From NCBI GenBank assembly GCA_001939945.1, contig MOEB01000008.1, positions 62,001 through 126,000 of the forward strand: a stretch of DNA of 64,000 nucleotides, written 5' to 3'. The translations under genes were made by a program, and so were the position numbers. Under the pieces are notes generated by a model. It did not search any database. It was not told where the DNA came from and was given only the letters and a program-made list of their open reading frames with translations. Below are positions 4,546 to 28,813 of the stretch, piece by piece. Position 1 is the stretch's first letter; each line of letters opens with the position of its first letter. This DNA is from Aerophototrophica crusticola. GTDB taxonomy: Bacteria; Pseudomonadota; Alphaproteobacteria; Azospirillales; Azospirillaceae.

Positions 4546-5205
4546 TCAAGCCCGCGGCGCCGGGCTGCAAGCCGGAAGCAGGCCCAGCGCCTGCGCCCGC
4601 ATCACCGCGTCGGTGCGGTTCTTGGCGTCCAGCTTCTTCAGGATGCGGCGGACATGCAGCTTCACCGTCACCTCCTGCATGCCGAGTTGGCGGCCGATCT
4701 CCTTGTTGCTGCCCCCGCCCATCAGCCCGGCCAGCACCGCCTCCTCCCGCTCCGTCAGCAGGCGGCCGGCCGGCGCCGGGGCCGCCGCGGCACCCGGCTC
4801 CGCGCCGGCCATGGCAAGGGCCAGCGCCGCCGGCACGGTGGTGCCCCCCGCCAGCAGCAGCCGCACCGCCGCCACGAAGGCCGCCCGCGGCAGGGTCTTG
4901 GGCAGGAAGCCCACCGCCCCGCGCGACAGGGCGTCGAACAGCACCTCCGGGCTCTCCGCCCCGGTCAGCACGGCGACGGGGCCGGTCACCCCGGCCTCCT
5001 CCAGCACGGCCAGCCCGTCGCCGCCCTCCCCGCCCGCCAGGAACCAGTCCAGCAGCACCAAGTCGAAGGCCTGTCCCCCCAGCGCCGCCAGCCCCGACAC
5101 CCCCGCCACGAAGCAAAGCTCCGCCTCCGGCAGCTCCCGGCTCAGGTAAAGCTCCACGGCGTCCCGGTAGGCCGGGTGGTCATCAGCGACGAGGATGCGC
5201 GTCAT
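4546..5205 (-). CDS. NarL/FixJ-type response regulator, LuxR HTH
   Basis: 219 residues. The receiver (1-125) has VADDHPAYR, the phospho-acceptor in LVLLDWFLAG, TGAESPEV and the switch Lys in GFLPKTLP. The LuxR-type helix-turn-helix (about 150-205) has LTEREEAVLAGL, NKEIGRQLGM and EVTVKLHVRRILKKL, a canonical family pattern. It should bind DNA as a phosphorylated dimer. It is the first gene of the minus-strand signalling run ending with the chemoreceptor, so its targets may include that run. The ATG at 5205 gives the standard length of the family. Confidence 0.9.
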   Translation of the reverse strand: MTRILVADDHPAYRDAVELYLSRELPEAELCFVAGVSGLAALGGQAFDLVLLDWFLAGGEGGDGLAVLEEAGVTGPVAVLTGAESPEVLFDALSRGAVGFLPKTLPRAAFVAAVRLLLAGGTTVPAALALAMAGAEPGAAAAPAPAGRLLTEREEAVLAGLMGGGSNKEIGRQLGMQEVTVKLHVRRILKKLDAKNRTDAVMRAQALGLLPACSPAPRA

Positions 5206-5291
5206 GGCTTGCCGCTTTGGTTACACCATCCGGAAGTGTGCATGGATGGGGTGGGGTCCTGTCAACCTTCCCTAGTATCGTGGCTGCGGTC

Positions 5292-5306
5292 ATAAACCTT
5301 CGTTAA
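5292..5306. promoter_or_regulatory. CtrA-like box, one mismatch
   Basis: ATAA-N7-TTAA followed by CC, in the gap between the divergent LuxR-type regulator and the ion-channel gene. It differs by one base from the TTAA-N7-TTAA consensus of the alphaproteobacterial cell-cycle and motility regulator CtrA. TTAA is rare in this GC-rich sequence, but a single near-match is weak evidence. Confidence 0.3.
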
Positions 5307-5386
5307 CCCTAGTCCGCGTGGCGTTGAATCCTCTGGGGCCAAGGGCCTTCTTAATGTGCGCCCGCAGCACAGCCGGACGGTGCGCC

Positions 5387-6253
5387 ATGACCGACACGAC
5401 CTTGATCTCCCCTTCCCTCCCCGCCGCGGACAGCGGATTGCGGCGGTTCGTGGAGTCCGCCAGCTTCCAGCGCTTCATCATCGCCGTGATCCTGGTGAAC
5501 GCGGTGACACTGGGGCTTGAGACATCGTCCACCGCCATGGCGGCCATCGGCCCCGTCCTGTCGGCCCTGGACAAGGTCGCCTTGGCCATCTTCGTGGGCG
5601 AGTTCCTGCTGAAGCTCTGGGCCTATCGCCTGTCCTATTTCCGCGACGGCTGGAACGTCTTCGACTTCAGCATCGTCGCCGTGAGCGTGGCACCCCTGCT
5701 TGGGCTGGGGGCAGGCGGCAACCTGTCGGTGCTGCGTGCGCTCCGCATCCTGCGCGTCCTGCGCCTGCTGTCCGTGGTCCCGCAGATGCGCAGCGTGGTC
5801 CAGGCGCTGTTCGGCGCCCTGCCGGGGATGGGCAGCATCATCGGCGTGTTGGGGATCATGTTCTATGTCAGCGCCGTGCTCTCCACCAAGATCTTCGGCG
5901 CCAGCTTCCCGGAGGAGTTCGGGACCCTGGGCGACAGCATGTTCACCCTGTTCGCGGTGATGACGTTGGAAGGCTGGGCCGACATCGCCAAGCGGGTGAT
6001 GGAGGTCTATCCCTATGCCTGGCTGTTCTTCATCCCCTTCATCCTGGTGGCCACCTTCGCGGTGCTGAACCTGTTCATCGCCATCATCGTGAACAGCATG
6101 CAATCGCTGCACGAACAGCACGCGAAGGCGGAGGCCGAGGCCGACCGCCAGGCCGAGGCGGACGGCCGCAACCGCGTGGAGGCCGAACTCGCCGCCCTGC
6201 GCGCGGAGATCACCGCCCTGCGGGAAGCGTTGGGGGCAGGCAAGGGGACGTGA
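5387..6253 (+). CDS. voltage-gated cation channel, NaChBac/CavMr type
   Basis: 288 residues with the single-repeat six-helix plan of bacterial voltage-gated channels. S1 is about 28-45, S2 60-80, S3 90-107 and S4 112-132, with arginines every third residue (R117, R120, R123, R126). S5 is about 147-168, then a pore helix and selectivity filter TLEGWAD (193-199), S6 211-238 and a C-terminal coiled coil (245-285), as expected for tetramer assembly. NaChBac has Ser at filter position 4; here it is Gly, as in the calcium-selective prokaryotic channel CavMr. The start at ATG 5387 is preferred; a GTG 69 bases upstream would add 23 residues without homologous character. Confidence 0.9.
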   Translation: MTDTTLISPSLPAADSGLRRFVESASFQRFIIAVILVNAVTLGLETSSTAMAAIGPVLSALDKVALAIFVGEFLLKLWAYRLSYFRDGWNVFDFSIVAVSVAPLLGLGAGGNLSVLRALRILRVLRLLSVVPQMRSVVQALFGALPGMGSIIGVLGIMFYVSAVLSTKIFGASFPEEFGTLGDSMFTLFAVMTLEGWADIAKRVMEVYPYAWLFFIPFILVATFAVLNLFIAIIVNSMQSLHEQHAKAEAEADRQAEADGRNRVEAELAALRAEITALREALGAGKGT

Positions 6254-6261
6254 GCGGCCCC

Positions 6262-6831
6262 CTACCCCGGCAGCGTCTCCACCAGCCGGGCGTGGCCGCC
6301 GCAGGAAAGCTGGAACCGCACCCAGCGGAAGCGGCTGGGCGGGATCAGCAGGTGGGGGGAGGTGTTGGGGCCGGTCGCGGCCTCCACCGCCGGGGCGCCG
6401 GGCTCGAACCAGCCCAGCTCGCCCAGCCGCGCCTCCGCCGCCACGATCTCCCCCGTCGCGTGGGGCCAGAGGGAGGTGCCCATCAGGTCCGCCGCGGGCA
6501 CCCGCAGCTCCCTCTCCCGCTTCGGCGACAGGGCCAGCAGCCGGTGGGTCAGGTCGCAGACCAGGTGCACGGCCGTGGCGGCATCGCGCACCAGCCGCGC
6601 CAGCTCCCGATCCGCCGCGCTGTCCAGCCGGGCGGCCATCAGCAGGCGCAGGGCCTGTTGCTCCCCCGGATCGGGGGCGAGGCGGCCGCTCTCCCACCGC
6701 GACAGGGTGGCCTGGGACACGCCCAGCAGCTCCGCCGCATGGGTCTGCTTCACCCGCCGCAGCGCCCGCCAGGCCCGCAGCGACCGCCCCAGCCGGGACG
6801 GGTCGCGGCAGGCGATCACGTTTGCCTCCAT
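6262..6831 (-). CDS. XRE-family transcriptional regulator
   Basis: 189 residues. An N-terminal helix-turn-helix (about 14-70) reads LRAWRALRRVKQTHAAELLG then SQATLSRWESGRLAP, the XRE/Cro pattern. The C-terminal half (about 80-185) has no domain I can name with confidence; it resembles a small ligand-binding or PAS-like region. The gene converges on the ion channel (8 bases between the stops) and is divergent from the HAD gene at 6937, which it may regulate. The start at 6831 is chosen because the reading frame farther upstream lacks protein character and the HTH begins immediately after it. Confidence 0.82.
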   Translation of the reverse strand: MEANVIACRDPSRLGRSLRAWRALRRVKQTHAAELLGVSQATLSRWESGRLAPDPGEQQALRLLMAARLDSAADRELARLVRDAATAVHLVCDLTHRLLALSPKRERELRVPAADLMGTSLWPHATGEIVAAEARLGELGWFEPGAPAVEAATGPNTSPHLLIPPSRFRWVRFQLSCGGHARLVETLPG

Positions 6832-6936
6832 GCCCCGGCCCCCTTCCCCCCTGAATAAGTTATGCCGCCGCCCTGGTCCCGGATCATGGCAGAGTCCGCC
6901 GGACCCGCAAGGCCTGACCTGGAGTGAGAGCGCACC

Positions 6937-7653
6937 ATGTCCCCCGCCCCCTGCCCCCGCGTGGTCGCCCTGGATGGCGATGACACGCTGTGGGAGAACG
7001 AGACCAACTTCGTCACCTCCTATGCCCGCTTCCGCGAGTTGCTGCTGCGCCATGTGGACATGCCGCCGGCGGAGGTGGACCGGCTGTTGCTGGCGACGGA
7101 GAAGCGGAACCTGAAGGCCTATGGCTACGGCGTGAAGGGCTTCGTCCTGTCCATGCTGGAGACGGCCATCGACGTCACCGACGCGCGGATCCCCGCCAGC
7201 GACCTGAAGGAGATCCTGGGCCTCGGCCGCTGGATGCTGGAACACCCCCTGACCCCCATTGACGGGGCGGCGGAGGTGGTCACCGCGCTGCGCGACGCCG
7301 GGCATGAGGTCTGGCTGATCACCAAGGGCGACCTGTTCGACCAGGAAAGCAAGGTCGCCCGCTCCGGCCTGGCCGAGCTGTTCCACCGGGTGGAGATCGT
7401 GTCGGAGAAGGACCCCGCCACCTACCGCCGCCTGCTGGAGCGGCACGGCGTGGAGCCCGCGGACTTCGCCATGGCCGGCAACGCCATGCGGTCGGACGTG
7501 CTGCCCGTCCTGGCCATCGGCGCCCGCGCCTTCTTCATCCCCCACCCCCTGACCTGGGCGCATGAGGTGGTGCAGCCCCACCCGGGCGCGGCCTTCGTGG
7601 AGCTGAAAAGCTTGCGCGACCTGCCTGCGGCCCTGCGGGCCATGGCGGCGTGA
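6937..7653 (+). CDS. HAD-superfamily hydrolase
   Basis: 238 residues of the haloacid-dehalogenase fold. Motif I is VVALDGDDTLW (nucleophile Asp with the +2 Asp), motif II the Thr in VWLITKGD, motif III Lys in VEIVSEKDP, and motif IV near FAMAGNAMRSDV, where the expected acidic residues are partly replaced. The cap region lies between about residues 20 and 95. It is probably a phosphatase of a small metabolite; the substrate cannot be read from sequence. It converges on a second, unrelated HAD gene, with a parS-like palindrome between the two stops. Confidence 0.85.
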   Translation: MSPAPCPRVVALDGDDTLWENETNFVTSYARFRELLLRHVDMPPAEVDRLLLATEKRNLKAYGYGVKGFVLSMLETAIDVTDARIPASDLKEILGLGRWMLEHPLTPIDGAAEVVTALRDAGHEVWLITKGDLFDQESKVARSGLAELFHRVEIVSEKDPATYRRLLERHGVEPADFAMAGNAMRSDVLPVLAIGARAFFIPHPLTWAHEVVQPHPGAAFVELKSLRDLPAALRAMAA

Positions 7654-7660
7654 GGGCCGG

Positions 7661-7676
7661 GTTGCGACGTCGCAAC
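7661..7676. promoter_or_regulatory. parS-like centromere site 1
   Basis: Perfect 16-bp palindrome GTTGCGACGTCGCAAC, one of five identical copies within 3 kb around parAB. It sits between the convergent stops of two HAD genes, about 0.9 kb upstream of parA. Its length and GTT...AAC ends match the style of known chromid and plasmid parS sites. Confidence 0.8.
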
Positions 7677-7681
7677 TTCCC

Positions 7682-8338
7682 TCAGGCGGGCGGCGGGTGC
7701 AGCGCCTCCCCCAGGTCCCGGGCCACGGCGGCGGGTGGGTAGGTGGGGTACTCGTCCGCGGCGCCGGTGCGGTTGACCCAGATGGTGTCGATGCCAGTTG
7801 CCACGGCGCCAGCCACGTCCCACCGGTTGGAGGAGTAGAAGCGCAGGGTCCGCCCCCGCCAGGGGTCCAGCAGCCCATAGGCGGCGGGCGTCGGCTTGTA
7901 TGCCCCGACCGTATCCACCGACAGCACCCCGTCGAACAGGCCGGACAGGCCCGCCGCCCGGATGGCCCGGTCCAGCATGGCCGGCGTGGCGTTGGAGAAG
8001 ACAAGCAGCCCCTCCCCCCTTCCCTTTGCCGCTTCCAGCGCGGGCCGCACATCCGGGAAGGCGGCCAGCTCCGCATAGGCGCCCAGCAGCCGTGCTTTCA
8101 GGGCCGCATCGACCCCGCCCACCGCGGCGGCGGCATAATCCAGCGCCTCCCGCGTCAGCACCTCGAAGTCCCGGTAAGCGCCGATGCCGTTCAGCACCCA
8201 GGTGTACTCAAGCTGCCGGGACCGCCACAGCTCCGACAGCCGCCGCGCCTCCGGCCCCACCTCCGCCGCGTGGGCGGCCACGGCAGAATGCACGTCGAAC
8301 AGGGTGCCGTAGGCGTCGAAGGCGTGGACAGTGTCCAT
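7682..8338 (-). CDS. haloacid dehalogenase, type II
   Basis: 218 residues resembling (S)-2-haloacid dehalogenases. Motif I is AFDAYGTLFDVHS with the nucleophilic Asp; the family-typical Arg/Asn region lies in the cap. Motif II is LLVFSNATP, the catalytic Lys is in SVDTVGAYKPTPAAY, and motif IV is RFYSSNRWDVAGA with VNRTGA downstream. Family members convert 2-haloalkanoates to 2-hydroxyalkanoates with inversion; the physiological substrate may differ. The ATG at 8338 is chosen because GGGAGGA lies 5 bases before it, although an in-frame ATG exists 24 bases upstream at 8362. Confidence 0.88.
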   Translation of the reverse strand: MDTVHAFDAYGTLFDVHSAVAAHAAEVGPEARRLSELWRSRQLEYTWVLNGIGAYRDFEVLTREALDYAAAAVGGVDAALKARLLGAYAELAAFPDVRPALEAAKGRGEGLLVFSNATPAMLDRAIRAAGLSGLFDGVLSVDTVGAYKPTPAAYGLLDPWRGRTLRFYSSNRWDVAGAVATGIDTIWVNRTGAADEYPTYPPAAVARDLGEALHPPPA

Positions 8339-8478
8339 GGTGTCCTCCCGCTGTTCCGTCATGGGACCTTACCGGCCGGGGGCGGTCCTGCACAGCCCGC
8401 GGAAAGGGGGCAGGGCGGCCCCATCGGGCGGCTTGACCATGACCGTCGCCGTGGCGCATAGGGAACCGGCGCGGGTGA

Positions 8479-8494
8479 GTTGCGACGTCGCAAC
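8479..8494. promoter_or_regulatory. parS-like centromere site 2
   Basis: Second perfect GTTGCGACGTCGCAAC, 90 bases before the parA start codon and next to the dyads at 8504-8540. Spreading of ParB from here could also silence or tune parAB transcription. Confidence 0.8.
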
Positions 8495-8503
8495 CCCGGA
8501 CGA

Positions 8504-8540
8504 AAGTTGACCGTGATCAACTTGCCCTGTTGACCTTACG
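8504..8540. promoter_or_regulatory. two dyads upstream of parA, candidate operator
   Basis: AAGTTGA and TCAACTT flank six bases (8504-8523). Close behind, GTTGAC and GTCAAC flank CTTAC (8530-8546 region). Both dyads share the GTTGA half-site and lie 40-80 bases before the parA start. ParA here carries an N-terminal DNA-binding segment, as in plasmid type Ia ParA proteins that repress their own operon. Autoregulation through these dyads is inference. Confidence 0.4.
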
Positions 8541-8583
8541 TCAACCTTGGCCTAGGCTCCCCGGAGAGGATCGGAGGGGGCCC

Positions 8584-9570
8584 ATGGACGGCAGTGACCT
8601 GCGGGCGGTGCGGGAGGCGCGCGGTGAGACGCAGCAAGCCTTCGCGGAATGGCTGAACGCCCAACTGGGCCGGCGTTATGACAAGGGCCGCATCAGCCGG
8701 TGGGAAGGCGGGACGGAAAAGATCCCCCAGCCGGTCGCCGCCTTCCTGTCCACCCCGCCCAAGCGCGCCAAGACCACCGCAACCGTCGTGGCGTTGAGCA
8801 ACCAGAAGGGCGGCGTGGGCAAGACCAGCGCCGCCGTGAACATCGCCGCCGCCCTGGCCGGCCTGGGCCAGCGGGTGCTGCTGGTGGACGCGGACCCCCA
8901 GGCCAGCGCCACGGTGCACCTGGGCGTCAGCCAGGCGGACATGTCCAACGCCGGCCGCACCACCTACCACGTCATGCTGAAGGACCAGCCGGTCCTGTCC
9001 GCGGCGGTGCCGGTGAACGGGGGGCAGTTCCACCTGCTGCCCTCCACCATCCTGCTGTCGGCGGCGGAGACGGAACTGATCGCCGAGCCCATGGGCACGC
9101 TGGTCCTGCGGGAACGGCTGGCCGCGGCACGGCCCCAGTATGACTACATCCTGGTGGACTGCCCGCCCCACCTGGGCATGATGACCCTGAACGCCCTGGC
9201 CGCCGCCGACGGGGTGCTGATCCCCGTGCAGACGGAGATGCTGGCCCTGATGGGCGTGCCGTTGCTGCTGGACACCATCAGCAAGGTGCGCCGCCGCGGC
9301 AACCCGGACCTGTCCATCATCGGCATCCTGCCCACCATGTACACCGCCCGCCACACCCAGGACCGGGCCACCCTGGCCGACCTGGAGGAGCGGTTCGGCA
9401 AGGCCCTGCGGGTCTTCAGCCCCGTGCCGCGCTCCACCATCTTCCCCCAGTCCGTGGCCGCCGCCGTGCCCACGCTGGAGGTGGCACCCGACCCCGCCAT
9501 CACCGGCCCCTTCCGTGAGGTGGCCCAAGCCCTGCTCTCCGCCGACCAGGAGGCTGCACATGTCGCGTAA
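8584..9570 (+). CDS. parA: ParA partition ATPase with N-terminal HTH
   Basis: 328 residues. An N-terminal helix-turn-helix (about 5-55: VREARGETQQAFAEWL, then GRISRWEGG) precedes the deviant Walker A KGGVGKTS (75-82), the A' motif DADPQAS (about 98-104) and Walker B LVDCPPHLG (about 190). ParA dimerises with ATP on the nucleoid and moves ParB-parS complexes. The HTH-bearing architecture is that of plasmid rather than main-chromosome ParA. The start at 8584 has GGAGGGGG upstream. It overlaps parB by 11 bases, indicating translational coupling. Confidence 0.95.
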   Translation: MDGSDLRAVREARGETQQAFAEWLNAQLGRRYDKGRISRWEGGTEKIPQPVAAFLSTPPKRAKTTATVVALSNQKGGVGKTSAAVNIAAALAGLGQRVLLVDADPQASATVHLGVSQADMSNAGRTTYHVMLKDQPVLSAAVPVNGGQFHLLPSTILLSAAETELIAEPMGTLVLRERLAAARPQYDYILVDCPPHLGMMTLNALAAADGVLIPVQTEMLALMGVPLLLDTISKVRRRGNPDLSIIGILPTMYTARHTQDRATLADLEERFGKALRVFSPVPRSTIFPQSVAAAVPTLEVAPDPAITGPFREVAQALLSADQEAAHVA

Positions 9571-10477: not shown

Positions 10478-10633
10478 CCGAATGCCTGCTTCGGGCCCGT
10501 CCTTGTGGAACCGAACCGCCCCGTCGGTTCATAACCCGGCTCCCGGCCCGGATGGCCGACCTGTCCACCCCGGGGATGTGGTCAGCCACGCCGAGCCCGG
10601 CCGATATCGCGTTGGCGGGACCCCAGCTGCAAA

Positions 10634-10649
10634 GTTGCGACGTCGCAAC
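10634..10649. promoter_or_regulatory. parS-like centromere site 5
   Basis: Fifth copy of GTTGCGACGTCGCAAC, 172 bases from site 4, in the non-coding stretch between parB and ridA. Palindrome 18 bp with flanks. Confidence 0.8.
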
Positions 10650-11025
10650 TCGCCGCCACGCCGGCCGGTCAGGCCCTGCGGCTCGCATGCTTACTTCCCG
10701 GGGGCGACCGCGCTGCCGCCCTGGCTGGCGGGTTGCCCAATGCAGCCACGTCGTGGCCGTATCCTTACGGGCCGGGGGCAGAGGACGCGTCCGGGCCAGG
10801 GGGCGATGGTGGCCGCCGCCGGAGTGTGCCCACGGTCGGCATGAAAACGCCCTGAAACATCCGGCTGTCCGGCTTTTCCTCCCCCAGCCCGTAAGGAAGG
10901 GTGCGGGGCTATTCCCACGACCCCGCATGGCTGCCGGAGCCAGGGGTCCTCCCGTCCCTGCCGGTCCGGGGTGGCGCGGGCGGTACCGTCGGCCAGATCC
11001 TGGTGGAAGCGGCTGGGCGCCCCGG

Positions 11026-11436
11026 TCAGGACGGCAGCTCATCCGGCACCACGGCCGTGGCCTCGATCTCCACCAGCGCCTCCGGCTCCAGCAGGGAGAC
11101 GACCTGGGCCAGGGCCATGGCGGGGTAATGGTCGCCCATCACGTCGCGGTAGGCGGCGCCGATACTTTCCAGATTGTCACGATAGGCCTGGATGTCCGTG
11201 ACGTGGCAGGTGAGGCGGACCACATGCTGGGGCCAGGCGTTGGCCGTGGCCAGCACGGCGGTCACGTTCTTCAGGGCTTGGTGGAACTGGCCCACAAGGT
11301 CCTCCGCCGCGAACCGGCCGTCGGGTGTGCGGCCGGATTGACCGCCGGTGACCACCAGCGTGCCCTTGGCCGCCATCCCGTTGGCATGGCCGCGGGGCCG
11401 GGGCCAGCCAGGGGGATGCAGGGGGCGGGGCATCAT
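11026..11436 (-). CDS. RidA (YjgF/YER057c/UK114) family protein
   Basis: 136 residues. The opening PPGWPRPRGHANG, then VVTGGQSGRTPDG, and the C-terminal ALVEIEATAVVPDE are typical of RidA-like proteins, which form trimers and deaminate reactive enamine/imine intermediates or act on related substrates. The usual catalytic Arg region is near VVRLTCHVTD (about 82-91). Two ATG codons (11436 and 11433) are adjacent; either could start. The gene abuts the remnant of an acyl-CoA dehydrogenase, suggesting both belonged to one catabolic operon. Confidence 0.85.
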   Translation of the reverse strand: MMPRPLHPPGWPRPRGHANGMAAKGTLVVTGGQSGRTPDGRFAAEDLVGQFHQALKNVTAVLATANAWPQHVVRLTCHVTDIQAYRDNLESIGAAYRDVMGDHYPAMALAQVVSLLEPEALVEIEATAVVPDELPS

Positions 11437-11666
11437 GGACGCCCCCGGGAGGTAAGGTTGGGCAGGGGCTGGCGGGCAAGGACCACCTTCCGCACCTCCG
11501 TGGCACCTTCATGGATGCGCCAAGCCGGCCTCTCGCGGACCAGGCGGCGGGCGACGTGGCCGGACAACACGCCAAGCCCGCCGAAGTTCTGCACGGCGAC
11601 GTCCGCCACCCTTTCACGCCGTGCCAGCGTCTCTCGCACCAGACAGAGGGCGGTGGGGTTGCCCGG
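11433..11666 (-). pseudogene. acyl-CoA dehydrogenase C-terminal remnant
   Basis: About 70 codons matching only the end of acyl-CoA dehydrogenases: VQNFGGLGVLSGHVARRL, then RIHEGATEVRKVVLAR, corresponding to the family pattern of a Gly-rich FAD-contacting helix followed by Arg-x-x-x-E-G-(A/T)-x-E-V. The first 300 or so residues, with the catalytic base and substrate pocket, are missing; upstream lies the 3' end of an EamA transporter. This is a truncated, non-functional fragment. Its stop overlaps the RidA start codon. Confidence 0.7.
11441..11457 (-). repeat. stray iteron-like sequence near ridA
   Basis: GCCCCCGGGAGGTAAGG, identical over 17 bases to the iteron at 15075-15091 but 3.6 kb away from the main array. 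It lies just upstream of ridA. Confidence 0.6.
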
Positions 11667-15093: not shown

Positions 15094-16145
15094 CAGTCCT
15101 CCGGCTCCAGGCGGAAGGGCAGGGGCGGGGCGTCCAGGCGGCGTTGGATGCGGGCCAGGGCCCGTTCCGTGTCGGCCAGCAGGCCGGACAGGTCGTCCGC
15201 CAGCTCCAGCGGGTCGGCCTCCAGCGCAGCCGGGCGGGGCGGCGGGGGCTTGCCGGGCTTGGGCGACGGGGTGGGGTCCCCGGCGCGGGCGGGCTGCACG
15301 CGCTCCACCTCCTCCCGCACGGACTTCAGGTCCTCGGTGACATAGACCTTCCAGGTTTCCCGCCCGCTGGCGTCCACCAGGATGCCCAGCTCCGCCAACT
15401 CGGCCAGCAGCTTGCCCGCACCGCGCAGGCTCAGGTCGAAATGCTGGGCCACCTGGGCGGGCGTGACCGCCTGGCAGGCGGCTGCATAGTCCACCAGGGC
15501 GGGGAGCTGGCTGGTGGAGCGGCGCGGGCCCAGCCGGCGGCGCCAGGACCGCCAGGCGCGACGCAGGTCGATCAAGTCATCCAGGCCATTGCGCGCCTCG
15601 CCGGCGAGGTCGCGGCAGAGGGCCTCATGGAAGCCGGCGGCCAGGTCACGGGGGCTGCCCTCCGCCCGGAAGGCGCCGGAACCGGTGAGGCAGGGCAGGG
15701 GGCCGCTGCGGACCACGCCCGTGTCCAGCAGGTAAAGCGGCAGGGCGAGGCGCGCATCCTCCCGGGCGCCACCATCGGCGAGGTGGGCCAGCATGCCCCG
15801 GGCCGCGGCCTCCAGCAGATTGCGGCCGGGCTTGTGTTCGGCCTTCATGCGGGACAGGGCGGCCCGCACCCGGTCGTTGGGGGTGTTGGCCGCCAGGTTG
15901 CGCAGGCCCACCAGGACCTCCAGCGCATGCCGCTCCGCCCCGAAATCCGCCAAGTGGCGCAGGGGCAGGCCGGCCAGCAGCCCCCCCAGCCGGACCATGT
16001 CCACCATAAGCCCGTCGCTGGCCGCGGCCCGCGCCGCCTCGCGCACCATGGCGCGCTGGCGCCAGGCGGGCAGCAGCGGGTCGCCGCGCAACGCCTCATC
16101 CAGGCGGGCGACCCACAACAGGGCGGATTCGGGCAGGCTGAGCAT
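15093..16145 (-). CDS. origin-linked helix-turn-helix protein, DUF1612-like
   Basis: 350 residues. An alpha-helical N-terminal two thirds (LLWVARLDEALRGDPLLPAW, ALEVLVGLRNLAANTPNDRV) is followed by a winged helix-turn-helix (about 235-295: ACQAVTPAQVAQHFDLSLRG, AGKLLAELAELGIL, ETWKVYV) and a proline-rich tail. The layout recalls the DUF1612 plus HTH proteins found on rhizobial plasmids, but I cannot confirm the family. It is unlikely to be Fic-like, as no HPFxxGN motif is visible. Its stop codon lies within the last iteron of the origin, so it is physically locked to the replicon. The start at 16145 excludes an upstream frame without protein character. Confidence 0.65.
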   Translation of the reverse strand: MLSLPESALLWVARLDEALRGDPLLPAWRQRAMVREAARAAASDGLMVDMVRLGGLLAGLPLRHLADFGAERHALEVLVGLRNLAANTPNDRVRAALSRMKAEHKPGRNLLEAAARGMLAHLADGGAREDARLALPLYLLDTGVVRSGPLPCLTGSGAFRAEGSPRDLAAGFHEALCRDLAGEARNGLDDLIDLRRAWRSWRRRLGPRRSTSQLPALVDYAAACQAVTPAQVAQHFDLSLRGAGKLLAELAELGILVDASGRETWKVYVTEDLKSVREEVERVQPARAGDPTPSPKPGKPPPPRPAALEADPLELADDLSGLLADTERALARIQRRLDAPPLPFRLEPED

Positions 16146-21483: not shown

Positions 21484-21498
21484 TTAAGTCCTTCTTAA
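21484..21498. promoter_or_regulatory. perfect CtrA-type box TTAA-N7-TTAA
   Basis: TTAAGTCCTTCTTAACC contains the exact consensus of the CtrA response regulator and lies 50 bases before the first gene of the SET operon, in one of the few AT-rich spots of the region. Whether this organism's CtrA uses it is inference. Confidence 0.5.
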
Positions 21499-21547
21499 CC
21501 ACGCCAGCCTAATAGAGGAAGTCCAGTCTTCTATAAGCGGGGGCGTG

Positions 21548-22126
21548 ATGTCGATGTTGTCACTTGTCGTGCGGCCAGAGTTGGCTCCCCACCGGCCGCA
21601 GGCCAAGCTGGCCCAATACCTGCACGTCTATGTCGCCCCGGCGTCGACCGGGGGACTGGGCCTGTTCACCGCCCGGCCGCTGGCCAAGGGCGACGTGGCC
21701 CTGAGGGTGACCGACGCCCGCTACCTGTCCCGGGCCATGAGCCGCAGCCAGCTCGTCTGGCAAGGCTATACCCATGCCGACATCTTCCAGGTGGGGCCGG
21801 ACCTGTTCATCCCGCCCTATGGCGGCCCGGACGACTTCACCAACCACAGCTGCGACCCGACCTGCGGCCTGAGGGTGGGCGGGGACGGGTTCAGCATGCT
21901 GGCCCTGCGCGACCTGCCGGCGGGGACCGAGCTGACCTACGACTACTCCACCCACCAGGAGCACGGGGCCGAGGACATGGAATGCCTCTGCGGCTCCCCC
22001 CTCTGCCGCGGGGTGGTGCGCAGCTTCTCCACCCTGCCGGAGCCGCTGCGGCGGCGCTATGCGGCCCTGGGCGTGGTGGCGCCCTTCGCCCTGGCCGCGG
22101 CCGGCATGGCCCCGGGCGGGCATTAG
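21548..22126 (+). CDS. SET-domain protein (putative protein-lysine methyltransferase)
   Basis: 192 residues with a full SET signature: GGLGLFTARPLAKGDVALR at the N-terminal side, DDFTNHSCDPTCGL (the NHSC-x-P motif forming the cofactor/substrate knot), AGTELTYDYST with the catalytic Tyr region, and a post-SET-like CLCGSPLCRGVV that could bind zinc. Such proteins transfer a methyl group from SAM to lysine. A bacterial SET gene at the head of a signalling operon is unusual. It ends 10 bases before the next gene. The target protein cannot be deduced. Confidence 0.88.
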   Translation: MSMLSLVVRPELAPHRPQAKLAQYLHVYVAPASTGGLGLFTARPLAKGDVALRVTDARYLSRAMSRSQLVWQGYTHADIFQVGPDLFIPPYGGPDDFTNHSCDPTCGLRVGGDGFSMLALRDLPAGTELTYDYSTHQEHGAEDMECLCGSPLCRGVVRSFSTLPEPLRRRYAALGVVAPFALAAAGMAPGGH

Positions 22127-22136
22127 GTCACCGGAC

Positions 22137-24800
22137 ATGCCGGCGGGACAGGCCCTGGCGCGGGGTGCCACACGCTTCCTGGCCCGTCCGGCGACGGTGT
22201 GGGAACTGGCGGTGCTGGGCGGGCTGGTGTCCGCCGGCGTGCTGGTGCTGACCACCGCCGGCGGTGCGCTGTACCTGGCCGACCAGGGCAGCGAGGGCAT
22301 GCCCCTGCTGTACCTGGCCCTGGCGGGCGTCTCCATGCCGCTGGCCTCGGCCCTGTCCGCCTCCCTGGCCCGGTGGCGGCCGGTGGCGGTGTTCCGGGGC
22401 CTGTGCGCCGTGTCGGCGGTGGCGGCGCTGGCCGCCTTCGGGGTGGAGGGGCGGCCGGCCCTGGCCTTCGCCGTGTACCTGGCGGCCTACCTGCTGGAGA
22501 TCCTGGTGGACACGCTCTACTGGATCATCGCGGCGGAGTACCTGCCAACCCGTGAGCTGAAGCGCCATACCCCGTTCCTGGCCATGTCCTTCGGCGGCGG
22601 CGGGGCGGTGGGCGGCGTGCTGGCCGCCCTGCTGACGGGCCATTTCCCCACGGCGGCCCTGCTGCCCCTGGTGGCCGCCCTGTTCGCGGCCGCGGCCTTC
22701 CAGCTTGTCAGGATCGAGAGGTGCCTGCCCGCCGTCGGCGACGGGGAGGAGGACGAGGAGGAAGCCGGCCCCGTGGCGGCCCTGCGCGCCGTGGCCCGGG
22801 CGATGCGGGGCTTCCCGCTGGTGCTGGTGGTCTGCGGCTCCGTCCTGCTGATGTCGGGCATGTTCTGCCTGCAGGATTACCTGGCCATGGCGGCCTATGC
22901 GGAGGCCTACCCGGATTCGGCGGAGCTGGCGGGCTTCCTTGCCGTGGTCTATTCGGCGCAGCAGGCGGCGGAGCTGTTGCTGCTGGCGGTGCTCAGCCCG
23001 CTGGTGCTGGACCGGTTCGGGCCCCTGGCGCGCAATTTGGTCTTCCCCCTGACCAGCCTGGCCGCCCTGGCGGCGCTGGGCCTGTGGTGGGGGCTGCCGG
23101 CAGCCATCCTGCTGCACGTGAACGCCAACGCTGTCTCCAACGCCGTGTTCGAGCCGGTGAAGACCCTGAACTATGCCGCCATCCCCCACCGGGTCTGCGG
23201 CCAGGTGCGGGTGCTGGTGGAAGGCATCGCCTATCCCGCCGGCATCGCCCTGTCGGGGGCGGGGCTTCTGGCGCTCCAGGCCGCGGGGGCCGGCCCGCGG
23301 GAGGTGCTGCCCATCGCCCTGGCCCTGGGCGTGCTGTTCCTGGCCGCGTCGGCCGCGGTGGGGGCCGGGTTCCTGCCCAGCCTGGTGCGCAGCCTGCGCC
23401 AGCGGGACGACGGCCCGGCCCCGCTGAAGTCCCTGGCGCGCATGGACCTGCAGGCCCTGCGCGCCCACCCGGACCCGGCCGTGCGCGAGGTGGGGGAGCA
23501 GTTGGCCCGCCGGTTCGAGACGGCCACCGTGCCGGACGGCGATGCCGCCGAGGCGGGACACACCCCGGAATGGGTGAGCGACGCCGCCGCCCTGGCGGAG
23601 GACGAGGACCTGGACGTGCGGGCCACAGCGGTGGAGGTGCTGGCCGCCGCTGCGCGGGACTGGCCGGCGGCGGTGGCCGCCCTGGGCGACAGGCTGGAGG
23701 ACCCGGCGGCCACCGTGCGCCACAGGGCGGCGGACGCGCTGGGCGGCTGCGGCAACAAGGGGGCCGCGGTGGCGGCAAGGCGGCTGACCTCGGCGCGGGG
23801 GGAGGTGGTGAATGCCGCCATCCGCGCCCTGGGCGCCATCGGGACCGCCCGGGCCCGCCGTTCCCTGCGGGCCCACCTGCACCCGCTCTACCAGCAGGCC
23901 CGCCTGAACCTGGCCCGCCAGGCCCAGGCGGAGAGCGTGGCCCAGGGCGGGGGAGGGGACGCGCGGGCCGGCCTGCTGGCCGCGGCCCTGGCCGACGGCA
24001 ACCGCCGCATCGTCTGGCAGGTGCTGACGGTGAAGGCGGCGCTGGGCAACCGGCGCGACGTGAACCTGCTGTACAACCTGGCCCGCTCCGCCGACCCGCG
24101 CACCCGCTCCGACGCGGTGGAGGCCCTGTCCAGCCTGCCCACGGGCAAGCTGCTGCGCCCGGTCCTCGACCTGCTGGACACCCCGGCGGAGGGGCGGCCG
24201 GCAACCGGGGCCGACGCGGCGCCCGCCCTGCCCGGCAGCCTGCCGGACGGGGTGCTGGCGGCGGCACTGGGGTCCCTGGCCCTGGCCACCCGGCTGGGAC
24301 CGCCCCTGGCCCGGGCGGAGGACGGGGAGCTGCGCCGCCGGCTGGAGCAGGTGCTTTTCCTGAAGTCCGTGGCCTTCTTCCGCTCCCTCTCCTTCGAGGA
24401 GATCGCCGCCCTGGCGGAGCGGGGGGAGCTGGTCACCCCCATGGCCGGCCAGGTGCTGGCGGAGGAGGGGGAGGCCGTGCGCCACCTGTTCGTCGTGCTG
24501 GAAGGCAGCGTGCGGCTGGTGGCCCGGGGCGCCACCCTGGCCACCCTGGGCGCCGGCGAGACGGTGGGGGAGACGGCCTATGACCCCGCCGCCCGGCACG
24601 GGGCCAGCCTGCTGGCCGGGCGGGGCACGCGCCTGCTGCGCTTCGGCCAGGCCGCCATCGCCGACTTGGTGGCGGAGCAGCCGCAGGTGCTGCGGGACGT
24701 CTGCCTGTCCCTGGAGGACCGGCTGGGCCGGGCGCTGGCCCGCGCCATGCCGGAACCCGTGCCGCCCCGCGGCGTCGATTCACCATGCAAAGCCGCCTGA
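22137..24800 (+). CDS. NTT/MFS-like membrane domain fused to HEAT repeats and a cNMP-binding domain
   Basis: 887 residues in three parts. Residues 1-420 form about 12 membrane helices with the motif NAVFEPVKTLNYAAIPHR and later VRVLVEGIAYPAGIALSG. This resembles the ADP/ATP translocase-like (NTT, Npt1/Npt2) branch, where F-P-x-K-x-x-x-Y precedes a conserved helix. Residues 430-720 are alpha-helical HEAT-type repeats (DLDVRATAVEVLAAAARDWP, ATVRHRAADALGGCGNKGAA, VVNAAIRALGAIG). Residues 735-870 are a cyclic-nucleotide-binding beta roll (VLFLKSVAFFRSLSFEEIAA, VLAEEGEAVRHLFVVLEGSV, ETVGETAYD). The fusion suggests a transporter or sensor gated by nucleotides or by protein contact. Start 22137, 10 bases after the SET gene. 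Confidence 0.8.
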   Translation: MPAGQALARGATRFLARPATVWELAVLGGLVSAGVLVLTTAGGALYLADQGSEGMPLLYLALAGVSMPLASALSASLARWRPVAVFRGLCAVSAVAALAAFGVEGRPALAFAVYLAAYLLEILVDTLYWIIAAEYLPTRELKRHTPFLAMSFGGGGAVGGVLAALLTGHFPTAALLPLVAALFAAAAFQLVRIERCLPAVGDGEEDEEEAGPVAALRAVARAMRGFPLVLVVCGSVLLMSGMFCLQDYLAMAAYAEAYPDSAELAGFLAVVYSAQQAAELLLLAVLSPLVLDRFGPLARNLVFPLTSLAALAALGLWWGLPAAILLHVNANAVSNAVFEPVKTLNYAAIPHRVCGQVRVLVEGIAYPAGIALSGAGLLALQAAGAGPREVLPIALALGVLFLAASAAVGAGFLPSLVRSLRQRDDGPAPLKSLARMDLQALRAHPDPAVREVGEQLARRFETATVPDGDAAEAGHTPEWVSDAAALAEDEDLDVRATAVEVLAAAARDWPAAVAALGDRLEDPAATVRHRAADALGGCGNKGAAVAARRLTSARGEVVNAAIRALGAIGTARARRSLRAHLHPLYQQARLNLARQAQAESVAQGGGGDARAGLLAAALADGNRRIVWQVLTVKAALGNRRDVNLLYNLARSADPRTRSDAVEALSSLPTGKLLRPVLDLLDTPAEGRPATGADAAPALPGSLPDGVLAAALGSLALATRLGPPLARAEDGELRRRLEQVLFLKSVAFFRSLSFEEIAALAERGELVTPMAGQVLAEEGEAVRHLFVVLEGSVRLVARGATLATLGAGETVGETAYDPAARHGASLLAGRGTRLLRFGQAAIADLVAEQPQVLRDVCLSLEDRLGRALARAMPEPVPPRGVDSPCKAA

Positions 24801-24812
24801 GGGAGGGCCGCC

Positions 24813-26744
24813 ATGCGCCTGCTGCACCGTGTCCTGGTCACCCTGTCCCTGGCGGGCGCCGCCCTGATCGCGGCCGACGCCGCCGTGCTGCACGCCGTGG
24901 TGGGGCGGGAGTTCCGCCGGGTGGAGTCCGGCCTTGCCGTAGATGACGCGCGGCGGGTCCTGCACGGCCTGTCCAACAACCTCAACCAGCTCCGCGCCTC
25001 CGCCAGCGATTGGGCGCAGTGGGACGACGCCCACGACTTCATGACCGGCGCCCAGGTGGACAGCTTCGTGGACGCCAACCTGGTCTTCCCCAGCTTCAAG
25101 GCCATCCAGGCCAATGTCATGGCCTTCGTCCGGACCGACGGGGACGTGGCCTGGATCGGCGCCTTCGACCTGGCCAGCGGCGAGGAGATGCCCCTGTCGC
25201 CGGAGGAGCAGGCCGCCTTCCTGCACCTGGGCTGCGGCGGCCCGCCGGAGCAGGGCTGCCAGCCCCGGGGCGAGCGGGCGGGACTGGCCGGGCTGGCCGA
25301 CCGGCCGCCCCTGCTGATGGCCTCCACCCCGATCCTGCGGGGGGATGGGTCCGGGCTGCCGGCCGGCGTGCTGGTGCTGGGGCGCTTCCTGGACGAGGGG
25401 GTGCAGAAGCGGGTGGCGGAGCAGGTGCGCGTGCCCTTCGCCCTGGCCCCCCTGGCCGACGCCATGGCCGGCCACCCCGCCGTGCGGCTGGGCGCGGAGG
25501 AGGTGTCGGCCGCCGCCTTCGCCGTGACGGAGACGGCGAACCTGATGGTGGTCAACCTCACCCTGGCGGGCCTGTCGGGCCGGCCGCTGCTGTCGCTCTC
25601 CACCTATCATGGGCGGGAGGTGATGGTGGCGGGGCTGGGGATGGTGAATTACGGGCTGGGGCTGCTGGTGGCGGCGTTGCTGGCCATCGGCGGGCTGCTG
25701 CTGTGGATGCTCCGGCAGCAGGTGATCCAGCCGGTGACCCTGCTGCTGGGCCGGGTGCTGCGGGCGCGCGGCGCCACCGACGACCCGGGCGCCCTCCGGC
25801 GGCAGGAGGGGCAGGGGGACGAGCTGGGCCTGTTGGCGGCCGAGTTCGAGCGCACCTTCGCCCAGCTGGACGAGACGCGGCGCCGGCTGGTGGAGCAGAG
25901 CTTCTACACCGGCATGGCGGAGCTGGCGGGCGGCATGACCCACAACCTCCGCAACGCGCTGACCCCGGCGGCGGTGCGGCTGTGGCGCCTGCAGGGGCAG
26001 ATGGATGAGAAGCTGCTGGCCCGGCTGGAGGCCGCGCTGGACAAGCTGCCGCCGGCGGAACCGGGGACCCAGCCTGCCCTGGTGGCGGCCTACCTGCGGG
26101 CGGGCCTGGCGGAGCTGCGCCGACAGGCGGCGACGGCCCGGGACGACCTGGGCGCCATCGGGGAGCAGGTGCGCCACATGCAGGCCATCCTGGCCGACCA
26201 TGAGCGCTTCAGCCGGACCGACCGTGAGGCGGAGCCGGTGGAGCCGCATGGGACGGTGGTGGCGGCCAGCAGGCAGCTGGTTGGCAGCCCCGCCGTGACC
26301 CTGGCGCTGGACCCGGGCCTGAGGGACCTGCCGCCCGTGGCCGGCAACGCCGTGGTGTTGGCCCAGGTCTTCGGCAACCTGCTGGTCAACGCGGAGGAAG
26401 CCATCCTGGCGACACCCCGGGGCGCGGGCACCATCGGCGTAGCCGGGCGGCTGGACGTCTCCACGGGAACACCGGTGGTGGAACTGCGGTTCACCGATGA
26501 TGGGCAGGGGATCCCGGCAGACCGGATGGCGCACATCTTCGAGCGGGGCTTCAGCACCAAGCGGCCGGAGAGCGGCGGCATCGGCCTGCACTGGTGTGCC
26601 AACAGCCTGGCCGGCATGGGCGGCAGCATCACCGCCGAGAGCGAGGGGCCGGGCCGCGGGGCCAGCTTCGTCGTGCGCCTGCCGGCCAGCCTGGCCGGTG
26701 ACCGGGACTGCGCCGGCCCACCGGCCCGGGGGAGGGTGGCATGA
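24813..26744 (+). CDS. CHASE4-domain sensor histidine kinase
   Basis: 643 residues. A first membrane helix (5-27), then a periplasmic CHASE4 domain (about 35-265) with the signature ASASDWAQWDDAHDFM, a second helix (about 275-298) and a short linker. The H-box is GGMTHNLRNALTP, followed by a long helical segment. The ATPase domain has NLLVNAEEAI, FTDDGQGIPADRM and GGIGLHWCANSLAGMGG. The His-Asn-Leu-Arg-Asn H-box and the GIGLHWCAN box set it in a divergent kinase group. It starts 12 bases after the NTT-HEAT-cNMP gene and overlaps the receiver gene by 4 bases, so the three are one operon. Confidence 0.9.
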   Translation: MRLLHRVLVTLSLAGAALIAADAAVLHAVVGREFRRVESGLAVDDARRVLHGLSNNLNQLRASASDWAQWDDAHDFMTGAQVDSFVDANLVFPSFKAIQANVMAFVRTDGDVAWIGAFDLASGEEMPLSPEEQAAFLHLGCGGPPEQGCQPRGERAGLAGLADRPPLLMASTPILRGDGSGLPAGVLVLGRFLDEGVQKRVAEQVRVPFALAPLADAMAGHPAVRLGAEEVSAAAFAVTETANLMVVNLTLAGLSGRPLLSLSTYHGREVMVAGLGMVNYGLGLLVAALLAIGGLLLWMLRQQVIQPVTLLLGRVLRARGATDDPGALRRQEGQGDELGLLAAEFERTFAQLDETRRRLVEQSFYTGMAELAGGMTHNLRNALTPAAVRLWRLQGQMDEKLLARLEAALDKLPPAEPGTQPALVAAYLRAGLAELRRQAATARDDLGAIGEQVRHMQAILADHERFSRTDREAEPVEPHGTVVAASRQLVGSPAVTLALDPGLRDLPPVAGNAVVLAQVFGNLLVNAEEAILATPRGAGTIGVAGRLDVSTGTPVVELRFTDDGQGIPADRMAHIFERGFSTKRPESGGIGLHWCANSLAGMGGSITAESEGPGRGASFVVRLPASLAGDRDCAGPPARGRVA

Positions 26745-27271
26745 CGCCGTTCCGGATCCTGGTGGCCGACGACGAGCGGCTTGTGCTGGAAGGGTACCGC
26801 ATCGTCCTGGAGGACCTGATGCGCGACACCCCGCCCCTGGCCGACCTGGAGGCGGCCCTGTTCGGCGGGGCGGAGACGGCCAGCCGCTACCTGCCCAAGG
26901 GATCCATCGAGGTGACCTGCCTGACCCAGGGCGCCGCCGCGGTGGAGGCGTTCCGCCAGGCGAAGGAGCAGGGCCGGCCCTATGGCGGGGTGCTGCTGGA
27001 CTTCCGCATGCCGCCCGGCATGTCGGGGCTGGAGGCGGCGCAGGCCATCCGGTCCATCGACCCGGGCGTGAACATCGCCCTGGTCAGCGGCTTCAGCGAC
27101 ATCGACATGGTGGATTTGGGCCGTACCGTGCCGCCGGCGGGGCGGATGTTCTTCCTGCAGAAGCCGTTCCAGGCCTATGCCCTGCAACGGCTGGTCCAGG
27201 CCTTCCGCGAGAGCTGGCAGAACGGCGGCCCCGCCGTGGTGAAGCGGATCGACCTGGGCGGGGAGGGGTGA
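26741..27271 (+). CDS. response regulator with extended receiver
   Basis: 176 residues. ILVADDERLVLEGYRIVLED opens the receiver, the phospho-acceptor is in GVLLDFRMPPGMSG, then IALVSGFSD and the Lys in FFLQKPFQAYAL. Between helix 1 and strand 2 there is an insertion of roughly 35 residues (DTPPLADLEAALFGGAETAS and following), longer than in CheY. No output domain follows. The ATGA overlap with the CHASE4 kinase gene marks it as the cognate partner. Confidence 0.88.
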   Translation: MTPFRILVADDERLVLEGYRIVLEDLMRDTPPLADLEAALFGGAETASRYLPKGSIEVTCLTQGAAAVEAFRQAKEQGRPYGGVLLDFRMPPGMSGLEAAQAIRSIDPGVNIALVSGFSDIDMVDLGRTVPPAGRMFFLQKPFQAYALQRLVQAFRESWQNGGPAVVKRIDLGGEG

Positions 27272-27292: not shown

Positions 27293-28813
27293 TCACGCCG
27301 GCTTGATGCCCTGGCCGTAGGTGAACAGGTCGCCCTTGTCGTAGGTGGCCTTCACCTGCCGCAGCCGGGCGTAATTGTCGCCGTAATAAGCGGTGGCCCA
27401 GTCCTTCAGGGACGGGTCGGGGAAGTTCTGGAAGGCGCCCCGGCCCTTGGTGGCGGTGTTCACGTCGGCATAGAACCGCTCCTGCCAGTCCAGGTTCTGG
27501 TCCACCAGGGACTTTGGGTCCTTCCTGTCCCACCAGTTCACCTCCGAGGAGAACAGCCAGTCATAGCCCCGGTGGACATAGGCCGTGGCGTCGGCGGCCG
27601 TGGCGTTCACCTGCCCGCCAACCTGGAAGAACTTGAAGGAGTTGCCCAGGCTGGTGCCGGGCATGTCGCGGGCCATGCGGAACATGGCGGCGACGGCGTC
27701 CCGGGTGATGTCCCGCGCCCGCATGTAGCTGGACTTCTCCTGGTAGAAGTACGGGTAGGTGAACTCGCTGAGCAGGTCCTGCGCCTGCCAGTAGGGGATG
27801 TCGCGCTTGATCACCTTCTGCGACGCCTTCTCCAGCACCGGGCCGAAGATGGCCTCCAGCGTCGTGCCGCACTTGTGCAGTTGGCCCAGGATGGAGACGG
27901 TGATCGGCCGCCCGGTCCCCGGCCTGGAATTCGCGGGCACCGTGGCGCTGATCTTGCTGCCGAACTCCGGCGGGGCCTCCGCCAGCCGGGTCAGCAGGGT
28001 GTGGAGCACCTCCTCCACCTCCGTGGCCCAGGTGATGTTGAAGAAGGTGACCGTGTCCACGGGCACGACCCGGAGGGTGAAGGACGTGTTGATGCCGAAA
28101 TTGCCGCCGGCCCCGCCGCGGCAGGCCCAGAACAGGTCCTTGTCGGCGCCGCTGTCCTGGATGTCGTCATGCAGCGTGCCGTCGGCGGTGACGATGCTGG
28201 TGGAATGCAGCAGGTCCGACGCCATGCCCAGCATGCGCATGTTGAAGCCGATGCCCCCGCCCAGCAGGAAGCCGGCCGCGCCCACCGTGTCGCAACGGCC
28301 GTGGGTGATGGTGCAGTTCAGCCGCTCCAGGGCCTTGTAGACGGCGCTGTTCAGGATGCCGCCGCCGATTTTGACCAGCCCCTCGGCCCTGGACAGCAGG
28401 GACACCTCGTCCATCAGGGTCATGTCGATCAGCAGGCCGGGGGTGGTGGAGAAGCCGGCATAGTTGTGGCCGCCGCTGCGCACCGCGAACTTGAAATCGT
28501 GCTTGCGGACCCAGGCCACGCAGGCCTGCACGTCCTGCTCGCTGGAACAGCGGGCGATGGCCGCCGGCAGGGTGTTGAAACGCAGGTTGTTCGGCCGGGC
28601 CATGTCGGCGAAGAACGGGTCATCCGGCAGCAGCACGCCCCCCTTCACCGCCCCGGCCAGATCCTTGAAGGCGGAGGCCTCGATCCGGGTGGCGCGGGCT
28701 TCCTTGGCCGACGCGGCGTGGAACGGCAGGACATTGGCGACGGTGGCCGCGGCCGCGACCTGCCCGGCGCCGGCCAGGAAGCTGCGGCGGCTCGGCTGGA
28801 TGGTCTTATGCAT
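27293..28813 (-). CDS. secreted berberine-bridge-type FAD oxidase
   Basis: 506 residues. A twin-arginine signal (PSRRSFLAGAG, cleavage after about residue 36) sends the folded flavoprotein to the periplasm. The FAD-binding domain has FAVRSGGHNYAGFS, whose His is the usual covalent FAD attachment, and HGRCDTVGAAGFLLGGGIGF, whose Cys could make a second covalent link. A C-terminal BBE segment reads NYARLRQVKATYDKGDLFTY. Related enzymes oxidise sugars, alkaloids or aromatic alcohols. It converges on the CHASE4 operon. Substrate unknown. Confidence 0.88.
   Translation of the reverse strand: MHKTIQPSRRSFLAGAGQVAAAATVANVLPFHAASAKEARATRIEASAFKDLAGAVKGGVLLPDDPFFADMARPNNLRFNTLPAAIARCSSEQDVQACVAWVRKHDFKFAVRSGGHNYAGFSTTPGLLIDMTLMDEVSLLSRAEGLVKIGGGILNSAVYKALERLNCTITHGRCDTVGAAGFLLGGGIGFNMRMLGMASDLLHSTSIVTADGTLHDDIQDSGADKDLFWACRGGAGGNFGINTSFTLRVVPVDTVTFFNITWATEVEEVLHTLLTRLAEAPPEFGSKISATVPANSRPGTGRPITVSILGQLHKCGTTLEAIFGPVLEKASQKVIKRDIPYWQAQDLLSEFTYPYFYQEKSSYMRARDITRDAVAAMFRMARDMPGTSLGNSFKFFQVGGQVNATAADATAYVHRGYDWLFSSEVNWWDRKDPKSLVDQNLDWQERFYADVNTATKGRGAFQNFPDPSLKDWATAYYGDNYARLRQVKATYDKGDLFTYGQGIKPA

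Follow-up and report, generated by a model that had tools for sequence, protein, structure and literature searches.

A conserved four-gene unit of SET, NTT-HEAT, CHASE4 kinase and receiver genes behind a CtrA-type box in Aerophototrophica crusticola

What could a SET-domain protein, a nucleotide-translocase-like (NTT) membrane protein, a sensor kinase and a lone receiver domain have to do with one another? The question is raised by four consecutive genes in a 64,000-nucleotide stretch of the Aerophototrophica crusticola genome (contig MOEB01000008.1; the whole stretch is called the window here). All four frames are open, lie on the forward strand and start with ATG; SET and NTT are separated by 10 bases and NTT and kinase by 12, and the kinase and receiver frames overlap by 4. 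An initial annotation had described them as a four-gene operon behind a perfect TTAA-N7-TTAA box, and the description holds: the genes are intact and tightly packed. So do the domain families it named, with Pfam matches above cut-off for SET in the first gene, HEAT_2 and cNMP_binding in the second, CHASE4 and HATPase_c in the third, and Response_reg in the fourth.

The first part of the answer lies in conservation. The gene set was followed in 10 loci from nine genomes, each counted once: the window's own, G017 (L021), G022 (L022), G095 (L064), G096 (L065) and L026 to L030. A collection scan contributed five loci, from Skermanella stibiiresistens, S. aerolata, a Rhodospirillales metagenome-assembled genome and Defluviicoccus sp. 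SSA4 (two loci); G097 and G094 were recognized as the two named Skermanella genomes by exact identity over 200 bases in each. The SET gene lies immediately upstream of the NTT-HEAT-cNMP gene in all 10 loci, and the full order SET-NTT-kinase-receiver is found in seven (own, L021, L022, L064, L065, L026 and L027). In L028, a Gcw_chp gene stands between the NTT gene and the CHASE4 kinase gene, where the contig stops, and in Defluviicoccus (L029 and L030) both signaling genes, kinase and receiver, are found upstream of SET instead; the two copies contain broken frames here and there and were read in pieces. The synteny search proposed at the outset thus came out on the side of a real grouping. Between G095 and G096, of the Skermanella genus group, the ratio of nonsynonymous to synonymous substitution rates (dN/dS) is 0.126 for SET, 0.192 for NTT, 0.175 for the kinase and 0.134 for the receiver.

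SET and NTT also travel together across genomes. Seven of 82 family genomes have a SET orthologue (E below 1e-90), with 12 more genomes giving weaker SET matches only, and the NTT orthologues occur in the identical seven (in G094, aligned in two pieces); G001 and G002 hold only a second NTT type. In a draw of 385 class genomes, both genes were found in the same two, the window's own and G017. When the 887-residue NTT protein was compared with 40 relatives, 18 gave some match, mostly to its cNMP-type part, and full-length orthologues besides its own were seen in G017 and G022.

The second part of the answer is the box. TTAAGTCCTTCTTAA is the sole exact TTAA-N7-TTAA in the window, against a mean of 0.00 in 100 dinucleotide shuffles. 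The palindrome, left unnamed in the initial annotation, matches the CtrA full site, TTAA-N7-TTAAC (PMC3692519), including the C directly 3' of it. The genome encodes a CtrA equivalog (L088; 410.9 bits, cut-off 350). An exact box stands 64 or 72 bases before SET in six of the 10 loci (own, L021, L064, L065, L026 and L027); it has one mismatch in L022 (-61) and L030 (-59), so that eight loci carry it with at most one, and two mismatches in L028 (-60). No box was found in the range tested in L029, where the SET start is uncertain and another assumed start yields a two-mismatch site. The background in the same ten loci is 0 exact and 9 one-mismatch sites among 205,715 positions. The seven-base spacer varies between the window's genome and Skermanella, and the TTAA half-sites are unchanged. 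Since the four genes are kept together in several relatives behind this same-looking CtrA switch, they look like one unrecognized signaling unit and not like chance neighbors.

Six other exact boxes are found in the genome. One stands ahead of a small frame, a STAS gene and a CheZ gene (L068 3018, G000:C1:697117) and another just upstream of a PAS-receptor gene; the remaining four have no such link and lie near an ATP synthase delta gene, an RTX-type gene, a radical-SAM-like frame and glycosyltransferase-like frames (the last two labels assigned by eye). A diverged CtrA-like paralogue is also present (L090, G000:C224; 152.5 bits against the CtrA model cut-off of 350). In Rhodospirillum centenum, a relative, encystment is under the influence of CtrA, as is swarming according to the title of a cited work, and cyst formation is driven by cGMP bound by a CRP homologue (PMC4340629, PMC4681086).

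Table 1. Features of the four-gene unit, in window positions.
Feature	Position	Strand	Basis
TTAA-N7-TTAA box, CtrA-type full site TTAAGTCCTTCTTAA, C next	21484..21498	+	pattern match; kept before SET in orthologous loci
SET-domain methyltransferase (putative), 192 residues; NHSC, TYDY and C-x-C-G-x3-C motifs	21548..22126	+	Pfam SET; ASH1L profile match; orthologue alignment
NTT-fold (~1-425), HEAT (~430-735) and cyclic-nucleotide-binding-type (~745-870) domains, 887 residues	22137..24800	+	Pfam; fold; profile
CHASE4 sensor histidine kinase, 643 residues; His377 in G-G-M-T-H-N-L-R-N	24813..26744	+	Pfam CHASE4, HATPase_c
Enlarged single receiver domain, 176 residues; D10-D11, D87, K141	26741..27271	+	Pfam Response_reg

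What might such a unit do? We tentatively favor a CtrA-controlled membrane signaling unit, linked to lifestyle switching, in which the kinase and receiver act through an NTT-HEAT membrane protein modified by the SET protein; judged from the sequences, this is a little more doubtful than probable. CtrA would control the operon at a defined point in the cell cycle or in a motile/sessile program, and the CHASE4 kinase would read a periplasmic signal and phosphorylate the receiver. Because the receiver in the window has no output domain of its own, it would act by docking, most likely onto the HEAT tail of the NTT protein, which would itself transport a nucleotide-like ligand or serve as its receptor. 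The SET protein would methylate a lysine on a partner within the unit, most likely the NTT/HEAT protein, and set that partner's sensitivity. In Defluviicoccus, the equivalent receiver is fused to a GGDEF-EAL enzyme, and the pathway therefore probably ends in cyclic di-GMP (c-di-GMP) or lifestyle control.

Each component bears on this proposal, the membrane protein first. Pfam places HEAT_2 (52.7 bits) and cNMP_binding (39.3 bits) in it; TLC (PF03219, the NTT family) gives no match and MFS_1 stays below cut-off (28.1 against 33.4 bits), so the “NTT” label rests on fold and family profile. The structure model was built from 4 sequences, with an overall predicted local distance difference test score (pLDDT) of 67.3, and its best Foldseek match is AtNTT1 (E 2.8e-9). 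The alignment gives Z 33.1 and a root-mean-square deviation of 3.3 over 409 aligned residues at ~13% identity, with LacY at Z 26.4. A profile of 13 NTT-like domains has C. pneumoniae NTT1 as its best PDB match, with a modest score (E 1.1e-5); among the 13, PF03219 matches four (the window protein is not one of them) and MFS_1 matches eight. K142 is nearly invariant and R143 invariant in these domains, and the pair aligns with the K-R motif of the C. pneumoniae protein. By the model, the membrane domain folds in the 12-helix manner of ATP/ADP translocators, which agrees with the nucleotide-translocase-like domain first annotated here.

Could the protein then be a regulated nucleotide exchanger (for ATP/ADP, NAD or similar), in which the NTT domain transports and the kinase, receiver, cNMP-type domain and SET protein only tune activity or expression? 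NTT-HEAT fusions and fusions of NTT, HEAT and a cyclic-nucleotide-binding domain (NTT-HEAT-cNBD) were described by Major et al. 2017 as widespread and of unknown function, and the latter were proposed to be possibly regulated ATP carriers, with cAMP adjusting ATP uptake (PMC5381601). That proposal, the best fold match to an ATP/ADP translocator and the conserved K142/R143 pair all suit an exchanger. The low identity to characterized NTTs and the missing TLC match do not, and the genome, at 6 Mb, is not reduced as in intracellular bacteria that use NTTs. An exchanger is a possible but, on balance, an unlikely reading.

As for the cyclic-nucleotide pocket, half of the loci appear to have a degenerate one. 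The arginine that we take to be the cyclic-phosphate contact of the GE...R-x-A cassette is present, by alignment, in the window, L026, L027, L028 and L030, and absent from L021, L022, L064, L065 and L029. With this residue of the pocket so variable, a cAMP or cGMP function common to the loci is unlikely, and a canonical cAMP sensor is weakened as a candidate. The membrane sensor of nucleotides envisaged in the initial annotation is weakened on this side.

The SET protein is matched by Pfam SET at 49.1 bits (cut-off 22.4). Its profile finds ASH1L as the best PDB match (E 4.9e-18), with other histone lysine methyltransferases alongside and BurB lower (2e-10). All nine window-type SET sequences aligned have NHSC, TYDY and CxCGx3C, which we take to be the catalytic and post-SET motifs. 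On these motifs, protein lysine methylation by the SET protein is plausible.

A second cluster complicates the picture. An NTT-HEAT protein of 1,051-1,067 residues is found in the window's genome (L023), G001 (L025) and G002 (L024); in the Pfam scans of L023 and L025, its cNMP_binding match is under cut-off. It is adjoined by a HAMP sensor, a divergent SpoIIE phosphatase and a PrmC-like methyltransferase (by Pfam in L025 and L023, by BLAST in L024), and HATPase_c_2 and STAS are matched by Pfam in L025. L024 and L025 also hold a BurB-like SET gene and a pyridoxal phosphate (PLP) decarboxylase gene, and the L025 SET protein matches BurB (PDB 9l4t) at E 2e-44. BurB is a methionine S-methyltransferase acting on free methionine en route to dimethylsulfoniopropionate (DMSP) (PMC12542666), and BurI is the decarboxylase of the same path (PMC7496086). 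A draw of 398 phylum genomes added two loci of the second type: L079 (G694), with a BurB-like SET and a decarboxylase, and L080 (G463), with a more distant SET and a decarboxylase. A methyltransferase gene is near in all five second-type loci, which were found by the NTT protein alone.

Three side observations touch on this cluster. L023 (G000:C266:17000-31000) may hold a partner-switching system around the NTT-HEAT protein in the window's genome. In L080, at 10560-11459, a PP2C-like phosphatase frame (seen by eye) is adjacent to and divergent from the NTT-HEAT-cNMP gene, after which come the decarboxylase and SET genes. The window's genome also has a BurB-like SET gene next to a PLP decarboxylase gene (L143, G000:C109:92000-104000, at 5018-6896), the decarboxylase being 76% identical to the one beside the L025 SET; the pair is a candidate S-methylmethionine/DMSP-amine path and is located away from the NTT genes.

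One could consider, then, that the window SET methylates a small molecule in the manner of BurB, with the NTT protein handling or sensing either what is made or S-adenosyl compounds. The company that related NTT-HEAT genes keep in L024, L025 and L079 (and, with a distant SET, in L080), together with the published activity of BurB, is what recommends the idea, and it qualifies the protein methylation first suggested for this unit: the lysine-methyltransferase motifs fit, but the SET proteins beside other NTT-HEAT genes resemble an enzyme of free methionine. The window type is nonetheless different in several respects. It keeps N-H-S-C and T-Y-D-Y and a SET-I stretch ~12 residues longer, where BurB-like proteins have a short SET-I and L-(L/S)-H-x-C and T-(M/I)-D-Y or close variants, and its profile prefers ASH1L to BurB. 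The 10 window-type loci, which span 12.7 to 64 kb each, give no match to the decarboxylases or to the PrmC-like methyltransferase of the second cluster, and the genome's own BurB-like/decarboxylase pair sits elsewhere, in L143. As the signature differs and the decarboxylase is missing from the 10 loci, the window SET as a BurB enzyme is not supported, and the wider small-molecule account is quite unlikely.

The kinase is matched by CHASE4 (85.3 bits) and HATPase_c (60.2 bits), and H377 is invariant in seven aligned kinases. HisKA has no Pfam match in it, and the H-box was seen by eye; many kinases have divergent dimerization domains, so the missing match does not exclude a kinase. The receiver is matched by Response_reg (45.1 bits), with D10-D11, D87 and K141 invariant in eight aligned receivers. 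The Defluviicoccus versions differ in architecture: Pfam finds CHASE4-HAMP-HATPase and PAS-GGDEF-EAL in L030, with the enlarged receiver spread over two frames as seen by BLAST, and HAMP-HATPase and Response_reg in L029, with GGDEF and EAL motifs downstream by eye only. Upstream of the L030 kinase, a transposase-like frame and a short SET-like fragment were noted by eye (2062-2930).

Do the kinase and receiver belong to the unit at all? SET and NTT might be the sole functional pair, with an independent two-component system sharing their promoter. Adjacency is complete only for SET and NTT; the kinase-receiver pair lies downstream in seven loci and upstream in two, and in L028 the kinase comes after the Gcw_chp gene at the contig end. 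Still, a homologous CHASE4-type kinase and enlarged receiver have re-associated with the pair in different orders, and the packing is close in the seven loci of full order: five have a 4-base overlap of kinase and receiver, and five a 10-base overlap of NTT and kinase. The pairwise identities of the four proteins also rise and fall together (r 0.94-0.98, from 15 or 21 pairs), a pattern that a common species history could produce by itself. That the two-component genes are mere promoter sharers is improbable.

To return to the CtrA-controlled signaling unit, several observations weigh against it. The predicted SET structure (pLDDT 49.5) is too poor for use. With Z 26.2 and 23.7, the structures of chlamydial NTT1 align with the membrane domain no better than LacY does. 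The cNMP arginine is lost in five of the 10 loci. The kinase of L021 (G017), at 7137-9118, is split into two frames, by sequencing error or decay, with SET, NTT and receiver intact. Across loci, kinase and receiver differ in position and architecture, and they could have joined a SET-NTT core at a later time. Genome-wide (6.06 Mb), TTAA-N7-TTAA occurs at seven places against eight for a reversed-pattern control; the box is not enriched, and its value as evidence lies in where it stands and in its conservation. As five of the six exact boxes ahead of SET belong to a single genus, independent support comes down to the window's genome, Skermanella, G022 and Defluviicoccus L030. Finally, the unit is rare, being found in two of the 385 class genomes and missing from 10 of the 11 genomes of its own genus; it is therefore not core to the CtrA program.

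A broader reading draws both clusters together. NTT-HEAT proteins would be recurrent partners of S-adenosylmethionine (SAM)-dependent methyltransferases, the NTT domain would sense or move SAM or S-adenosylhomocysteine, and the phospho-signaling genes would tune methylation to methyl-donor supply. The window type would then pair a lysine-type SET with a two-component system, and the second type BurB-like SET and/or PrmC-like methyltransferases and decarboxylases with SpoIIE/STAS-type partner switching. This reading is a long shot. A universal NTT-methyltransferase link was rejected: a 1,175-residue NTT-like frame (L138, G489) has no SET, methyltransferase or decarboxylase match on its 10.8-kb contig, nor do L139-L142, shorter frames with Pfam TLC matches. 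TLC matches occurred in 27 of the 398 phylum genomes, and wider stretches were examined for five of these besides the window's own.

Accidental grouping of unrelated genes, which the absence from most of the genus might suggest, is refuted by an order kept in several genera behind a conserved upstream box, and its probability is next to nil.

A scan for promoters and terminators found no sigma-70-like site, and its lone terminator-like match is not above shuffled-sequence level. The guanine-cytosine (GC) content of the operon is 74.5% against 71.5% for the window, and that of third codon positions (GC3) is 0.93-0.95 against 0.95 and 0.98 in two neighbor genes; composition gives no sign of a recent foreign island. 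The patchiness within the genus (1 of 11 genomes) may reflect loss or an older transfer of the unit. Downstream and convergent, at 27293-28813, lies an FAD/BBE oxidase gene with a weak match to a twin-arginine translocation signal; it is present in nine of the 11 genus genomes, including the window's own, and is not viewed as a member. The gene at 15096-16145 occurs, among the 11 genus genomes, in this one only.

Taken as a whole, the first interpretation of this locus is partly supported. The locus gives an NTT-HEAT(-cNBD) protein a testable genetic context in free-living Skermanella. If it is true that the SET protein modifies a signaling or membrane partner, the unit would amount to a lysine-methylation circuit on a bacterial chromosome, coupled to the alphaproteobacterial cell-cycle regulator. 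Literature searches, with thin coverage of subscription journals and most hits seen as listings, found no description of such a circuit tied to CtrA and no account of the four-gene unit. The claim that the combination is not a described system therefore stands, within those searches, for the four genes together and fails for the NTT-HEAT-cNBD fusion, published in 2017 (PMC5381601); the components are known and the four-gene combination is new.

How does the unit compare with what is known? Its place in the CtrA regulon of Alphaproteobacteria is suggested, from sequence alone, by the TTAA-N7-TTAAC site upstream and the CtrA equivalog in the same genome. With the ASH1L/NSD/MLL-type lysine methyltransferases, the SET protein shares NHSC-x-PN-like, E-L-T-Y-D-Y and post-SET cysteine motifs and its best PDB profile matches, but it is a stand-alone bacterial protein of 192 residues. 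BurB (PMC12542666) is likewise a small bacterial SET protein, and BurB-like proteins adjoin the second, related NTT-HEAT cluster; the window SET lacks the BurB-type signature, has the longer SET-I, and was found with no decarboxylase partner. The fold of residues ~5-421 and the aligned K-R motif tie the membrane protein to the AtNTT1 and C. pneumoniae NTT1 translocators (PDB 9j3m, 9j3n), a match that covers only its NTT domain and not the HEAT and cNMP parts, and that is known here from sequence and model. The published NTT-HEAT-cNBD fusions of free-living bacteria have the same three-part architecture, the window NTT domain being divergent (no Pfam TLC match); the accessible part of that paper (PMC5381601) does not mention a link to SET, a CHASE4 kinase, a receiver or a CtrA-type box. 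The closest relatives of the signaling half are the CHASE4 kinase and receiver-PAS-GGDEF-EAL proteins of Defluviicoccus L029 and L030, whose kinase and enlarged receiver are homologous to those of the window, where the receiver stands alone, without c-di-GMP domains.

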